Shown here: piece by piece, positions 5,519-26,701 of the stretch
Layout: each line of letters begins with the position of its first letter
Numbering within the stretch: position 1 is the first letter of the stretch
Origin: a virus
Strand: one strand, 5' to 3'
Length of the DNA: 47,225 nt
Virus record (IMG/VR): IMGVR_UViG_3300037264_000723
Coordinates: 1 to 47,225 of that record
The notes under the pieces: model-generated
The model's database searches: none
What the model was told of the DNA's origin: nothing
The model's input: the letters and a program-made list of their open reading frames with translations, nothing else
Made by a program: the position numbers and the translations under genes

Positions 5519-5691
5519 ATCTCGACCTCGACCTCGGCGTCCCGAACGGTGCCATCCTTCTCGAAGGGTGCCACACCGTTTGCGTGGCACTCTTCGGCAA
5601 AACCGCCCGTTTTCCCGAAGGGTGCCACCGATCTTGTGTGGCACCCTTCGGTGGCACTCTTCGGCAGCTCCCATGACCAGCCGCTTCCCAT
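5515..5691 (-). CDS. 58-aa ORF encoded across the hairpin repeats
   Basis: Supported by coupling: its stop overlaps the next start as ATGA, and an AAGAG site precedes its ATG. Two internal peptide repeats are encoded by the DNA repeats, EGCHTRSVAPFGK and EECHANGVAPFEK, each with a Cys-His pair. The C-terminus is acidic (DAEVEVEI). The protein could be a small metal- or nucleic-acid-binding peptide, or merely a frame tolerated across a structured element. I do not recognise it. Confidence 0.5.
   Translation of the reverse strand: MGSGWSWELPKSATEGCHTRSVAPFGKTGGFAEECHANGVAPFEKDGTVRDAEVEVEI
5543..5664. repeat. Cluster of inverted and direct repeats forming hairpins
   Basis: The 13-mer CGAAGGGTGCCAC occurs at 5562-5574 and 5616-5628, and its complement, exact or with one change, at 5584-5596, 5638-5650 and 5652-5664 (approximate ends). 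A degenerate copy lies near 5543-5555. The pair at 5614-5651 makes a perfect 13-bp stem with an 11-nt loop. The first pair makes a similar stem with one G-T. Several reading frames on both strands stay open through it. It could be an RNA-processing or attenuation element, or a mobile REP-like palindrome. Confidence 0.8.
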
Positions 5692-6472: not shown

Positions 6473-7048
6473 TCATACACTCTCTGGCGGGCCTTCGATG
6501 CGCTCGGCCAGGCCGGCTAGCTTCTGGCTAACGGCCGCGCTGATCCCGACCACGTTGACCGTGACCGATGCCTGCCCTGGTCCGACGTGGTCTCCATACT
6601 TGGCCGGATGCAGTTTGGCGATAAACCATTTGCGTGTGTCAACCCGGAGCCTAGACCGTTGAATATGTTCATGATTTGCGAGCCAGCCAGGATTGGTCGG
6701 ATCGTTCTTCTCCATCCAATCGTTGCGGCCGTCGTCGGCAATATCAAGCGTTTCCTCGAAGATCGCATCCGCGCGATCTTCGCGCGCTCGGGCGTAGCGT
6801 TTAGCGAAATAAGACTGCAAATCCATCCAGTCATAGATTGTATTCGCCGCAGGCATGTCTGGCAGTGCGCAGATTGATCTGAGGCTTTTGCCTTGGGAGA
6901 TGAGGGATATGATGATTGAGGCTGTGGCTTCGCTGTAGGCTGTGGGACAGCCCCGGTCTGATGCTTGATAGTGGATTGCCGACAATGGCGATGCGGTTTC
7001 AGCGTGGCTGAATGCGGCCTGTGGCTCGAGATCGGCAAAGTCTGACAT
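6473..7048 (-). CDS. terS: Terminase small subunit (TerS)
   Basis: 191 aa. An N-terminal helix-turn-helix region (IIISLISQGKSLRSICALP, then ANTIYDWM) is followed by AKRYARAREDRADAIFEETLDIADD and a late RLRVDTRKWFIAKLHPAKYGD segment, both familiar from phage small-terminase proteins. TerS selects viral DNA and stimulates TerL. It is the first gene of the leftward packaging operon, with its start facing the divergent control region before the ArdC cassette. Confidence 0.9.
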   Translation of the reverse strand: MSDFADLEPQAAFSHAETASPLSAIHYQASDRGCPTAYSEATASIIISLISQGKSLRSICALPDMPAANTIYDWMDLQSYFAKRYARAREDRADAIFEETLDIADDGRNDWMEKNDPTNPGWLANHEHIQRSRLRVDTRKWFIAKLHPAKYGDHVGPGQASVTVNVVGISAAVSQKLAGLAERIEGPPESV

Positions 7049-7163: not shown

Positions 7164-7376
7164 ATGTCTAGGTTCAAGTCGGGACGCGACCCTTACTGGC
7201 TTACCTCGCGCTTTGCGGGAAAGACTGCCGATGGCACGGCTTACCCAGCAGGCACATTGATCTTTTGGTACCCGAATAGTCGCACTGCGCTTGTTGGCGC
7301 TAAGGCTGAACAAGCCGCCCGCGACTTTGAGGCCGCACGGGCGGATGAAGCCTTTACGACAGGGGAATGGTCATGA
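7164..7376 (+). CDS. Small protein coupled to ArdC
   Basis: 70 aa, start chosen for the GGAGG site 7 nt before the ATG. It begins MSRFKSGRDPYWLTSRFAGK and has a YPAGTLIFWYPNSR stretch. From memory, related plasmid and phage proteins beside ArdC carry cysteine pairs in a zinc ribbon; here those positions hold no cysteine, so this would be a metal-free version. The stop overlaps the ArdC start (ATGA), so the two are made together. Confidence 0.65.
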   Translation: MSRFKSGRDPYWLTSRFAGKTADGTAYPAGTLIFWYPNSRTALVGAKAEQAARDFEAARADEAFTTGEWS

Positions 7377-8233
7377 CACGCGACGTTTACCAGGAAGTTA
7401 CTGACCGGATTATCTCCGCTCTTGAGACTGGCACGGCCCCATGGCTCCGGCCCTGGCGCGATAACAACGCGGGTTCCGGCCTTGAGCCCTACAATGCAGC
7501 GACCGGCCGGCCGTACAATGGAATTAATCTCCTTGTTCTCGGCACGGCGGCTTATGCCGATCTTGGATGGCTCACGTTCAAGCAAGCGCTCGACCTGGGA
7601 GGCAACGTCAGGAAAGGCGAACACGGGACGATGGTCGTGTTTTGGAAGTTCGATGCCGTGAAGGATAAAGAGACCGGCGAGACCAAGACCGTCCCGTTTG
7701 CCAGAGGCTATACGGTTTTCAACGTCGAGCAATGCGAAAACCTTGCCGTTTCCAAGCTGAAGCGTCCCACCATGCCGGAAGCCGGCTCGACTGATATGAA
7801 CGCACTCGCGACGAGAGTCGGAGCCATCGTCCGGCACGGTGGAAACAAGGCATTCTATACCACGGTCGGCGATTTTGTCCAAATGCCATCGGCCGATAGC
7901 TTCAGGAATTCGGAGCACTATCAGGCCACGCTCGCCCATGAGCTTACCCATTGGACGGGAAACGAAAAGCGCTGCAATCGGCAATTCGGCAAGCGCTTCG
8001 GCGACGCCGCTTATGCCTTCGAGGAATTGGTGGCCGAGATCGGCTCGGCCTTCCTATGCGCGCGCACTGGCGTGGCGCTCGATGGCTTGCAGCATCCGTC
8101 CTACATCAAAGGATGGCTCGAAATCCTGAAGGCCGACAAGCGGGCGGTCTTTACCGCAAGCTCCAAGGCGCGCGAGGCGGCCGGCTTCCTGCTCGCCGAT
8201 CGCGAGGAAGAGGAGGCGGCCCTTGCCGCGTAG
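7373..8233 (+). CDS. ardC: ArdC-type antirestriction protein
   Basis: 286 aa. The N-terminal DUF1738-like ssDNA-binding domain begins with VYQEVTDRIISALETGTAPW and continues with RPYNGINLLVLG and GNVRKGEHGTMVVFWK. The C-terminal domain is a zincin-like protease with HELTHW near residues 189-194 and the third metal ligand region AFEELVAEIGSAFL. Known ArdC proteins protect entering DNA from type I restriction. The ATG at 7373 is preferred to the one 6 nt upstream because it sits in an ATGA overlap. Confidence 0.9.
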   Translation: MTRDVYQEVTDRIISALETGTAPWLRPWRDNNAGSGLEPYNAATGRPYNGINLLVLGTAAYADLGWLTFKQALDLGGNVRKGEHGTMVVFWKFDAVKDKETGETKTVPFARGYTVFNVEQCENLAVSKLKRPTMPEAGSTDMNALATRVGAIVRHGGNKAFYTTVGDFVQMPSADSFRNSEHYQATLAHELTHWTGNEKRCNRQFGKRFGDAAYAFEELVAEIGSAFLCARTGVALDGLQHPSYIKGWLEILKADKRAVFTASSKAREAAGFLLADREEEEAALAA

Positions 8234-18144: not shown

Positions 18145-18419
18145 GCGAGGTTGATATTCCGTTCACGCAATATCTTCGGCCCAACGGGCGCAAGGTAGGC
18201 GTCACAATCGCCCGGCCAGTCGAAATTGCAACGCTGGCCCAAAAATTCATAGCGACTGGCGGATGGTTTGAATGCGAACATCTGCAAACGGGGCACGTGA
18301 GCCTAACGGCCTGCATGATTGTCGATGGCGAGCCGCAAGATGTGTTGTGCGAGCTAGTCGAAAACGGCCCCGATGTGCCGCCAGCCGTTGATCGGCTCGT
18401 ACGAGCCACCCGCCGTTGA
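18141..18419 (+). CDS. Small conserved phage protein, 92 aa
   Basis: Begins at a GTG in a GTGA overlap. DIPFTQYLRPNGRK, then ARPVEIATLAQKFIATGGWFEC, is a pattern seen in other phage small proteins of unknown role (quoted in parts). The 3' end is altered by a 28-bp tandem duplication: the stop codon lies in the second copy, because 28 is not a multiple of three. Confidence 0.65.
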   Translation: MSEVDIPFTQYLRPNGRKVGVTIARPVEIATLAQKFIATGGWFECEHLQTGHVSLTACMIVDGEPQDVLCELVENGPDVPPAVDRLVRATRR

Positions 18420-18440
18420 TCGGCTCGTACGAGCCACCCG
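18385..18440. repeat. Two tandem 28-bp repeats, each with a 14-bp palindrome
   Basis: 18385-18412 and 18413-18440 are identical. Each contains the perfect palindrome GGCTCGTACGAGCC (18394-18407 and 18422-18435). The first copy is coding, the second contains the stop. Could be a pair of protein-binding sites or a recent slippage duplication. Confidence 0.9.
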
Positions 18441-20158: not shown

Positions 20159-20271
20159 CTTCGCGGGAAAGCATCGGAGCCTTCGGGCCGCGCATCCCGT
20201 GGAGCGCGGGGCGGTGGGAAACTACGCCGCCCCGCGTCTTTCCCCTGCGACACTGTGTCACATCGGAATAG
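20155..20271 (+). CDS. Possible 38-aa ORF overlapping a hairpin
   Basis: Coupled to the upstream gene by ATGA. Rich in Pro, Arg and Trp, no recognised motif. The same DNA holds a strong hairpin at 20205-20236, so the stretch may instead be regulatory. Confidence 0.35.
   Translation: MTSRESIGAFGPRIPWSAGRWETTPPRVFPLRHCVTSE
20205..20236 (+). terminator. GC-rich hairpin, possible attenuator
   Basis: CGCGGGGCGG and CCGCCCCGCG form a perfect 10-bp stem with a 12-nt loop. Only a short T run follows (GTCTTTC), so it is a weak intrinsic terminator or a structural RNA element within the rightward operon. Confidence 0.5.
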
Positions 20272-22656: not shown

Positions 22657-22913
22657 TCACGCAAGACGACGAGGCGGTGGAGGCGATGGCGCGGGCGATG
22701 GCTGGTCTTACGGAGCAGGCTCCGTCGCGAAGCATCCCTGCCTTTTCACGTCAGCAAGCCCGCGCTGCGCTCGCCGCTCTCCGCAAATTGGGGTGGCGCG
22801 GGCCGCTGGTCGAGCGCCAGTGGACCCGCAACCGCTGCGATTGGAGAGACGCCGCCTGCGATCGAGGATGCCAGAACTTCTGCCGAGCGGAGGCCGATCA
22901 TGCAGCCAGATAA
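22653..22913 (+). CDS. Cysteine-containing small protein, 86 aa
   Basis: The N-terminal part (DDEAVEAMARAMAGL and SRQQARAALAALRKLGW) is a common helical pattern in small phage proteins. The C-terminus has CDWRDAACDRGCQNFC, five cysteines that could hold zinc. Function unknown. Confidence 0.55.
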   Translation: MITQDDEAVEAMARAMAGLTEQAPSRSIPAFSRQQARAALAALRKLGWRGPLVERQWTRNRCDWRDAACDRGCQNFCRAEADHAAR

Positions 22914-23322
22914 ATCAGCCCTCACAGACCTGATCGCGAGAGTCGAGAAGGCGAGCGGGCCGGATAGGGAGTTAGACGCAGACATCGACGTTGCGTTGTT
23001 CGGTGGCGAGACGGTCTGGAAACAGGCCAACTATATAATGGAACAGTACCCTGTATCTCGTCGCCCGAGCAGAGGTCACGTCGGCGGCTTCGCGAACGAG
23101 GCTATTCCACTCTACACCCAATCCCTCGACGCCGTCGAGGCGCTGGTGGAGCGGGAGCTGCCGAACCATGATTGGCAAGTGTTCCGCACGGTCGGAGCTG
23201 GTTGGTACGCAATCATTGATAAAGGCCATGCTGAACAGCATGGAAGAAGCGAGGCAAATGCCGCCATCGCGCTCTTGCTCGCGCTGCTGAAAGCGATGGA
23301 GGCGCGTGGCGCAAATGAGTGA
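22900..23322 (+). CDS. Conserved phage protein, 140 aa
   Basis: LIARVEKASGPDRELDADID, then YTQSLDAVEALVERELP, then HGRSEANAAIALLLALLKA, is a widespread phage pattern of unknown function. Overlaps the previous gene by 14 nt and the next by 8 nt. Confidence 0.7.
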   Translation: MQPDKSALTDLIARVEKASGPDRELDADIDVALFGGETVWKQANYIMEQYPVSRRPSRGHVGGFANEAIPLYTQSLDAVEALVERELPNHDWQVFRTVGAGWYAIIDKGHAEQHGRSEANAAIALLLALLKAMEARGANE

Positions 23323-23467
23323 TTACGATGTTTGTCGATGCGGCGACTACCGCTGTCAGCATGTTGATGGGACTGGCGCTTGCCCCCATATGCGAAAATG
23401 CCGCGAGCCTCTTTCGAGGCCCGCGCGGCTGGCGACAGCTTTCGCTGCCGGGATGCGATGGGGTTGA
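23315..23467 (+). CDS. Cys/His-rich micro-protein, 50 aa
   Basis: CRCGDYRCQH, then CPHMRKC, places six cysteines and two histidines in 28 residues, likely one or two zinc sites. Coupled to the upstream gene. Another frame over this DNA is also open (23319 on) but gives a less protein-like product. Confidence 0.55.
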   Translation: MSDYDVCRCGDYRCQHVDGTGACPHMRKCREPLSRPARLATAFAAGMRWG

Positions 23468-23715
23468 TTTAAGAATCCCTGGGGTTGAAGTCAAGTTAAC
23501 GATTTGCGACTCAGACGTATAAACAGCCAACCCCTTGATCTGGCTTGTATTTTCTGTCCGCAGGGTCCGTCCGTGTACGACTGAAGGCTACCTTGAGCGT
23601 GACCAAATTTAGCGAATCTCCCCTCACCCGACCCCGCCGTCTATTGAGCGCGGCGTCAACCAATTCGCCAATGGTCCAGAGTATCGCCAGAAACTTTTAG
23701 AGACAGAGCCAGGTC
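23468..23715. other. Intergenic region before the HTH-Lar gene
   Basis: No convincing ORF. GGGGTTG (23481-23487) and CAACCCC (23527-23533) form a 7-bp inverted repeat with a long loop, followed by a short AGCCA/TGGCT stem and a T-rich stretch (TGTATTTTCTG), which may stop transcripts of the long rightward operon. A new promoter for the next gene probably lies here, but no clear -35/-10 pair is seen. Confidence 0.4.
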
Positions 23716-24774
23716 ATGTCAGACGACACCGCTACAATCAGAGCTGAGTTGTGGAGCAAGATGCGAAACAAACCATATCGCGACAAATTCGTCGCGGCGC
23801 ATCTATCGATCAACATAGTCGCACAAATGCAGACTCTGCGAGAGGCGCGCGGCTGGAGCCAGAAGGAGCTTGCCGACAGAGCGAAAATGTCTCCATCGCG
23901 TATATCTGTCATGGAAGACCCATCATATGACAAGTTCACGCTGAGTACGCTTAAACGCTTGGCGTCCGCGCTTGATGTGGCATTGGTCACCCGCTTCACG
24001 ACGTTTAGTGATCTCGTGAATTGGGTGAGCAATCTCTCGCCAGAAAAGCTCGAAGTTTTGAGCTTTGGCGATGACAAAATTGCGGACGCAGCCATGGTCG
24101 TAGAGCGCGCCCCAGAAATAGCGCGTAAAGCAAGGATTCACAGTTCAGGGCCGGGCAATCCCGCTTCATCCGGTTTCCCGGACGATAACGCACAGCCCCA
24201 GGCCGAGCCGAGCGCAACGCCTGGGGCTCTTTTGCCGTGCCCGTTTTGCGGCAACGTCACGCCGACGATTCGCTCAAACAACATCGGTGACTACTACGTG
24301 CTCTGCGAGACCGAGCACGAGGGCGAAATGGCTTGCGGCTTACAATGGCGCGATGCACTCGCTACAGAACAGACGATGCACGCTGCATGGCGAAAGCGTG
24401 CGGAACAAGCTGAAGCCGAACTCGGCCGCCTCACGCGCGAACTCGCCGAGGCGAAGGCCGTGATTACGCGGCTTGTTAGGGTCGGGAACGACCAAGATAT
24501 TCGCACTCGCCGATATGAAGATGTTGCAGCAAACGCGATTGCCGACCGCGATAACGCCATCACCCGCGCCGAAGCGGCGGAGGCAAAGTGCGCGGGGATG
24601 GCGGAGGCGCTGAAGGAAATGGTTTACGAGACGACACACCTATCGCCGCCGGAGGACGACGGGGCTCATAAGTGCCGTATCAGTGCAGCCGCGTTAAGCC
24701 GCGCCCGAGAAGCCCTCAAGCAGTGGGGGGAAGTGATTACCCGCAGCTCCGCATCGGATAAGGCTGAGAGCTGA
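23716..24774 (+). CDS. HTH regulator fused to a Lar-like zinc domain and coiled coil
   Basis: 352 aa in one frame with three parts. Residues about 1-120: an XRE HTH of the HigA type (MQTLREARGWSQKELADRAK, MSPSRISVMEDP, TLKRLASALDVAL). Residues about 135-175: a low-complexity linker. Residues about 174-230: a Lar-type zinc domain (LLPCPFCGN, then C near the glutamate-rich segment, ALATEQTMHAAWRKRA). The rest is a coiled coil (AEAELGRLTRELAEAKAV). Lar proteins relieve type I restriction. The linker DNA contains a terminator-like hairpin. The 3' end overlaps a convergent gene by 38 bp. Confidence 0.8.
   Translation: MSDDTATIRAELWSKMRNKPYRDKFVAAHLSINIVAQMQTLREARGWSQKELADRAKMSPSRISVMEDPSYDKFTLSTLKRLASALDVALVTRFTTFSDLVNWVSNLSPEKLEVLSFGDDKIADAAMVVERAPEIARKARIHSSGPGNPASSGFPDDNAQPQAEPSATPGALLPCPFCGNVTPTIRSNNIGDYYVLCETEHEGEMACGLQWRDALATEQTMHAAWRKRAEQAEAELGRLTRELAEAKAVITRLVRVGNDQDIRTRRYEDVAANAIADRDNAITRAEAAEAKCAGMAEALKEMVYETTHLSPPEDDGAHKCRISAAALSRAREALKQWGEVITRSSASDKAES
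24194..24233 (+). terminator. Intrinsic-terminator-like hairpin inside the HTH-Lar gene
   Basis: AGCCCCAGGC (24194-24203) and GCCTGGGGCT (24219-24228) form a perfect 10-bp stem with a 15-nt loop, followed by CTTTTG. It falls exactly in the linker between the HTH and Lar parts, as if two genes had fused across the terminator of the first. Confidence 0.7.
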
Positions 24775-25208: not shown

Positions 25209-25541
25209 TTAGTCCTTCGGCCACATCTCAATGTACGATTTGAGGTAGTCAACCCGGCTGCGACATTCGGCTCCGGCTTCGCGCACCGCCTGAGCCCAGA
25301 GGGCGAGCGCCACGTCCGTCTCGATGTTCTCCGGCACGATGGGCTCGCGGGCGCACACAAGCTGATCGGCGGGGACGGTCGGGTAGGTCAGCTTCTCCAC
25401 CGTCACGGGCGGAAGGCGGATGATGACCGGATCGGGGGGCGGGGGGGTTGGGGCCGTGCCGCACGCGGCGAGTGTGGCCACAATCGACCCACAGAACATG
25501 AGCCGGAGCGCCCGTGTGGCCCTGTTGTGCCCACACGTCAT
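25209..25541 (-). CDS. Lipoprotein, candidate outer-membrane spanin (Rz1-like)
   Basis: 110 aa with a signal peptide and a lipobox LAAC (Cys27), then a proline-rich stretch (TAPTPPPPDPV) as in o-spanins. The C-terminal half has AREPIVPENIETDVALALWA and a conserved tryptophan pair. Larger than lambda Rz1, and not nested in the i-spanin gene: it is separated from it by the Mom-like gene. Start in an ATGA overlap. Confidence 0.65.
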   Translation of the reverse strand: MTCGHNRATRALRLMFCGSIVATLAACGTAPTPPPPDPVIIRLPPVTVEKLTYPTVPADQLVCAREPIVPENIETDVALALWAQAVREAGAECRSRVDYLKSYIEMWPKD

Positions 25542-26131
25542 TTCATCGCCTCCATTTGCTGGGCTGGCGCAGCCAATCTATAGACAAAGCGATGCTTTGA
25601 GACCCGAGCAACGCGCCTTATCTCGACGCCATCGGGCACATGGCCGCGCCTGCTATATCGTTTCCCACTCACCGCGTCGGCATAGTCGAAGCGCGGTGTT
25701 TTGCGTTCATCGTCGGTGCGACCATCAGCCTGCCAGTTTGCGGCCTTGTAGATCGTCCCCGCATGGCCCGCAGACGGGTCTGCGTAGGAAACGAGCATCT
25801 TGATGGCGGGGTGGAATTGTTTGATGTAGCGGACGGCGCGCGCGATCAGGAAGGTCTCGCCGTTCTGTGGCACGCTGTCATCGAGCCATAGCCGAGCCAG
25901 CTCCCACGTTTCCCCGCCGTACCGCTTCGAGGTTTCACGCGGTGGCAAGGCGAACACGATGACGCCGAGTAAATCAGCCCCGCGCTTCAGCGCCAGTGTG
26001 AGGACGCAAACGCCGGGCCATCTCCCGATGTAGTGGCGGCGGATCATAGCGTCCGCATCTTTGCGGCTCACGGGCGCTATCGTGCAGGTCGCGCGCCAGG
26101 ACTTGTCGAAGGTCGGGCCGTCAGGCTTCAT
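25538..26131 (-). CDS. mom: Mom-like DNA modification protein
   Basis: 197 aa with a GNAT-like core. GVIVFALPPRETSKRYGG, then TWELARLWLDDSVPQNGETF, LIARAVRYI, MLVSYADPSAGHAGTIYKA and ANWQADG match the Mu Mom family (quoted in parts). Mom adds a methylcarbamoyl group to adenine, making DNA resistant to many restriction enzymes. It sits between the two spanin genes and ends in an ATGA overlap, so it is likely made late, modifying DNA just before packaging. Confidence 0.85.
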   Translation of the reverse strand: MKPDGPTFDKSWRATCTIAPVSRKDADAMIRRHYIGRWPGVCVLTLALKRGADLLGVIVFALPPRETSKRYGGETWELARLWLDDSVPQNGETFLIARAVRYIKQFHPAIKMLVSYADPSAGHAGTIYKAANWQADGRTDDERKTPRFDYADAVSGKRYSRRGHVPDGVEIRRVARVSKHRFVYRLAAPAQQMEAMK

Positions 26132-26624: not shown

Positions 26625-26701
26625 GCCGCCGTAGCTCAGGCGGTAGAGCAGTCGCCTTGTAAGCGACAGGTCGCAGGTTCGAATCCATGCCGGTGGCACC
26701 A
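26625..26701 (+). tRNA. tRNA-Thr (anticodon TGT), bulged T-stem
   Basis: Acceptor GCCGCCG/CGGTGGC, D-arm GCTC/GAGC, anticodon stem GTCGC/GCGAC around CTTGTAA, and an encoded CCA. The T-stem reads GCAGG, loop TTCGAAT, then CCATGC: it pairs fully only if the A at 26686 is bulged, one base more than a standard tRNA. Runs opposite to the lysis genes, between the holin and i-spanin genes. May be functional, degenerate, or carry a sequencing insertion. Confidence 0.85.

Follow-up and report, generated by a model that had tools for sequence, protein, structure and literature searches.

A probable HTH–Lar gene fusion in a phage genome, with a hairpin in the coding sequence of its linker

The Lar restriction alleviation family (PF14354, TIGR03655, phrog_599) is the closest described counterpart of the zinc domain in the phage protein considered here. 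The two share the LLPCPFCG motif, and a C-terminal AAWRKR in the phage protein resembles the AWNRR of the family; the phage protein differs in scoring below the curated cutoffs of the family, in the spacing of its second cysteine pair and in being fused to a helix-turn-helix (HTH) domain. Its HTH part is 36–53% identical over ~105 residues to XRE-family regulators encoded beside DUF3467-type genes in Methylocystis rosea (L006) and Nitrospirota (L005), which, unlike the phage protein, stand alone without a Lar domain and are followed by a close or overlapping open reading frame (ORF). The DUF3467 match of that neighboring ORF lies above the cutoff in L005 only and below it in L006. Polyvalent, that is multidomain, phage proteins likewise place several domains in one polypeptide; the fusion protein is much smaller, and an HTH–Lar architecture does not appear in the portions of that work considered here (PMC5512222). 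At the DNA level, the linker between the two domains resembles an intrinsic (Rho-independent) terminator in possessing a GC-rich stem of 10 bp and, after it, four U, and differs from one in its 15-nt loop, its location inside an ORF and a T-run that is explained by coding.

With a probability of roughly 0.7, we consider the gene product to be a mosaic phage protein of an ordinary kind whose linker is disordered, and the hairpin to be incidental and not used as a terminator.

Domain layout and separate relatives

The window, meaning the whole stretch of DNA analyzed, is a 47,225-base IMG/VR virus record. The gene is the final member of a plus-strand run, with convergent minus-strand genes coming next; it extends from ATG to TGA, encodes 352 residues and contains no internal stop codon. 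Its parts are as follows.

23716–24774, + strand: probable HTH–linker–Lar-like–coiled-coil fusion gene (ORF; Pfam HTH_3 and Lar_restr_allev)
23833–23985, + strand: XRE/Cro-C1 HTH domain, residues 40–90 (PF01381; weak Foldseek neighbors)
24082–24228, + strand: disordered Pro/Ala/Ser/Gly-rich linker, residues 123–171
24229–24402, + strand: Lar-like zinc domain, residues 172–229 (PF14354)
24367–24774, + strand: helical/coiled-coil tail, residues 218–352, opening with the EQTMHAAWRKRAEQAEAEL module (helices in the structural model; module common to L019, L028 and L030)

The first-pass annotation had described HTH and Lar parts separated by a low-complexity linker that contains a perfect 10-bp hairpin followed by CTTTTG, and this description was borne out. 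The HTH_3 profile matched residues 40–90 with 37.4 bits against a cutoff of 23, which places the domain in the XRE/HTH_3 family. The Lar-like domain possesses CPFCG and AAWRKR, while its second cysteine pair, C197/C207, is oddly spaced at nine residues apart, and it missed both curated cutoffs (PF14354, 25.7 bits against a gathering score of 28.6; TIGR03655, 18.0 against 39.6). An AlphaFold model built from 13 sequences (mean pLDDT 64.5) was confident for the HTH, fell below a pLDDT of 50 across linker residues 110–170, modeled the Lar zinc part poorly and placed tail helices at residues 218–262, 267–307 and 324–351. The PDB chains nearest to the HTH in Foldseek were the restriction-modification controllers C.Esp1396I and C.BclI together with HipB, all at E values of at least 0.026, and PADLOC matched the HTH part only.

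The first-pass annotation had also pointed to relatives with separate genes as informative, and such genes were found for both parts. The six HTH relatives, from a Thiothrix plasmid, four bacterial genomes and one viral contig, are all separate genes with ORFs of about 168–220 residues and variable tails. In every one of the six, the start of the next ORF falls in the interval from 19 bases upstream to 53 bases downstream of the HTH stop codon; beyond that stop no terminator-like hairpin was detected (best d-score −31 or lower), and no CPxCG (Lar-type) motif was found near the HTH gene. Nothing in these relatives, which lack a terminator and sit close against the next ORF, suggests that the HTH gene once ended in a terminator. 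Among the Lar relatives, L021–L025 and L027 are short separate proteins, and the segment TE(Q/R)TMHAAWRKRA (TEQTMHAAWRKRAEQAEAEL) follows different N-termini in L019, L028 and L030, which points to module shuffling. Searching for the HTH family returned one locus in IMG/VR (L009) and two matches in 398 genomes of the phylum. No second HTH–Lar fusion was found by whole-protein search of IMG/VR, by tblastn in phages or in 385 genomes of the Methylocystis class; the IMG/VR search matched exact 8-residue patterns, and remote relatives can escape it. As for a toxin gene beside the HTH, the two ORFs upstream, 22900–23322 and 23319–23522, gave no Pfam match, in a search that an unknown toxin family would escape.

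Because the HTH and Lar parts occur in separate genes elsewhere, the gene is probably a genuine fusion, and as judged from these sequence comparisons the fusion likely represents a module swap. The protein would thus carry an XRE HTH at its N-terminus, then a disordered linker, a Lar-like zinc domain and a coiled-coil tail, and most likely originated by recombination or stop-codon loss among tightly packed small phage genes. The HTH probably binds DNA, and the Lar-like part may contact a protein of the host or of the phage, perhaps a restriction enzyme. With the Lar match under both curated cutoffs, an anti-restriction activity of this part is a possibility only. As it stands, the gene product is a further mosaic phage protein, and the searches made yielded no second case of its pairing of HTH and Lar-like domains.

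A hairpin in linker codons

Within the linker, the DNA forms a perfect 10-bp inverted repeat around a 15-nt loop, which itself holds only a weak 2-bp inner stem, and the repeat is followed by CTTTTGCCG.

24194–24203, + strand: left hairpin arm AGCCCCAGGC, inverted-repeat match to 24219–24228
24219–24228, + strand: right hairpin arm GCCTGGGGCT, inverted-repeat match to 24194–24203
24229–24234, + strand: CTT TTG T-run, codons for Leu172–Leu173, with which LLPCPFCG of the Lar domain opens (residue 172 is also where the TIGR03655 match begins)

How often chance yields such a structure depends on what is counted. Among 2000 synonymously shuffled versions of the ORF, 66 contained a perfect inverted repeat of at least 10 bp, and 49 of the 2000 had one inside linker codons 123–176; such repeats fall mostly in the linker because its composition favors them. 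A perfect inverted repeat together with a T-rich tail was obtained in none of the 2000 synonymous shuffles. When the whole window was shuffled (n = 200), 5% of the shuffles contained at least one such hairpin with a T-tail, and the real window holds two, namely the linker hairpin and one at 20205–20236. About 10 inverted repeats of such length occur in the window, where 1.2 would be expected; the window is therefore generally repeat-rich, and other causes make inverted repeats frequent in it. Across three comparable phages, not one gene contained a 10-bp sense-strand hairpin of similar strength with a T-tail. A hairpin plus T-run in coding DNA is unusual and above chance, though the feature was selected post hoc.

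The identical stem with a CTTTT tail occurs outside likely genes, at terminator-like positions, in the two viral contigs L033 and L035, which are unrelated. The hairpin pattern matched a third time in L034, within a stretch of GCCCCAG repeats, and this match was not considered further. A DNA-level search of plasmids gave no match. The shuffles with a T-tail, the stems in L033 and L035 and the three phages devoid of a gene-internal case all weigh against an incidental hairpin.

The T-run is nevertheless explained by the protein, since CTT TTG encodes Leu172–Leu173 of the Lar motif. The Lar relative L026 likewise possesses LLPCPFCG, but its codons, CTGCTCCCCTGT, are without a T-run. When two Leu codons were drawn at the frequencies with which the phage itself uses them, at least four T occurred in 12% of draws and TTTT in 3%. 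We regard the combination of a hairpin in GC-rich linker codons with the T-run of two Leu codons as most likely incidental.

Termination and other readings of the hairpin

The hairpin scored a d-score of −20 when the tail was taken straight after the stem, or +1.4 when the C was counted into the hairpin; its stem energy is about −23 kcal/mol, and its tail reads C, then UUUU, then G. The 15-nt loop lies outside the 3–13 nt range of TransTermHP, for which the loop limit is 13, while the median loop of real terminators is 4 (PMC12207403). A promoter/terminator scan did not list the linker hairpin because the loop exceeds the limit of 8 set in that scan; the matches that it did list were no commoner than in shuffles. 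Separately, the hairpin at 20205–20236, which has a TCTTTCCCC tail and lies outside likely genes, scored a d-score of 9 and is a better terminator candidate than the linker hairpin.

Among the alternatives, the one that survives best holds that the hairpin is the relic of an intergenic terminator, either that of the HTH gene or another once upstream of Lar, that was absorbed at fusion and is now unused. The matching stems of L033 and L035 demonstrate that similar sequence can look terminator-like elsewhere and keep this reading alive, as do the rarity of hairpins with T-tails inside coding DNA and the precision with which the stem stops at the Lar boundary. Set against these are HTH relatives that lack a terminator and leave almost no intergenic space, a T-run that is native Lar coding sequence, and a weak terminator score; on balance we judge a relic to be unlikely. 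The first-pass annotation had proposed two genes joined by loss of the first stop codon, with the terminator of the HTH gene left behind as coding sequence: the joining agrees with the separate HTH and Lar genes elsewhere, while the same three observations speak against the leftover terminator.

A hairpin that still acts conditionally inside the gene, whether as an intrinsic terminator or as an attenuator, and so lowers full-length mRNA when translation is slow, is quite improbable. Its stem stability and four U would suit such a role, a Caulobacter phage has annotated terminators whose tails are as poor as that of the linker hairpin, and ORF-internal 3′ ends are known in E. coli, one of them in aceK with an intrinsic-terminator score (PMC7815308). 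The long loop, the C ahead of the U-run and the d-scores argue otherwise, and a translating ribosome would be expected to block hairpin formation (PMC5021804). A transcript ending at the hairpin would also possess no in-frame stop codon, so that a clean short HTH protein fails as a product; the first-pass annotation had suggested that the hairpin may give a short HTH protein beside the long fusion, and two clean products are unlikely on that account. For such stop-less mRNA, ribosome rescue by tmRNA is predicted. If the hairpin worked, a terminator would have turned into coding sequence, and the fused genes would be partly separable at the RNA level. We hold it to be very improbable that the coding linker is a retained terminator, once intergenic, at which part of the transcripts still stop, so that it sets how much truncated message is made relative to full-length message.

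It is similarly far-fetched that the Lar part is also produced alone from the in-frame TTG at 24232, the start of MPCPFCG: this codon sits right at the domain start, and Lar proteins often begin just before PCPFCG, but a clear ribosome-binding site is absent and the upstream bases sit in the hairpin stem. An assembly or base-calling error that joined two separate genes, which the origin of the record as an IMG/VR virus contig and the missing second copy of the fusion would permit, is scarcely credible given a single frame that runs uninterrupted across the entire linker without in-frame stops.

Phage context

Genes on both strands of the window encode, among others, a terminase, an ERF recombination protein, a lysozyme and an ArdC-type anti-restriction protein. 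The large terminase is at best about 50% identical to those of Brevundimonas phages. In a synteny search, the neighboring protein encoded at 25538–26131 was 63–78% identical in other phages; in L015, the one syntenic phage read through, the HTH–Lar gene is missing at the corresponding place.

Several other features of the window were observed. Two 40-bp imperfect repeats (5558–5657), each of them an inverted repeat (CGAAGGGTGCCAC...GTGGCAC.CTTCGG), lie in the interval that separates the large terminase gene from the ORF at 6473–7048. The ArdC-type protein, encoded at 7367–8233, combines an ArdC N-terminal domain with a zincin-like metallopeptidase and belongs to an anti-restriction factor family. 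At 18394–18435, a perfect 14-bp palindrome, GGCTCGTACGAGCC, occurs in tandem copies 28 bp apart, which could constitute an operator or a simple duplication. A tRNA-Thr(TGT) gene at 26625–26701, the sole Rfam match, lies among the lysis-side genes.
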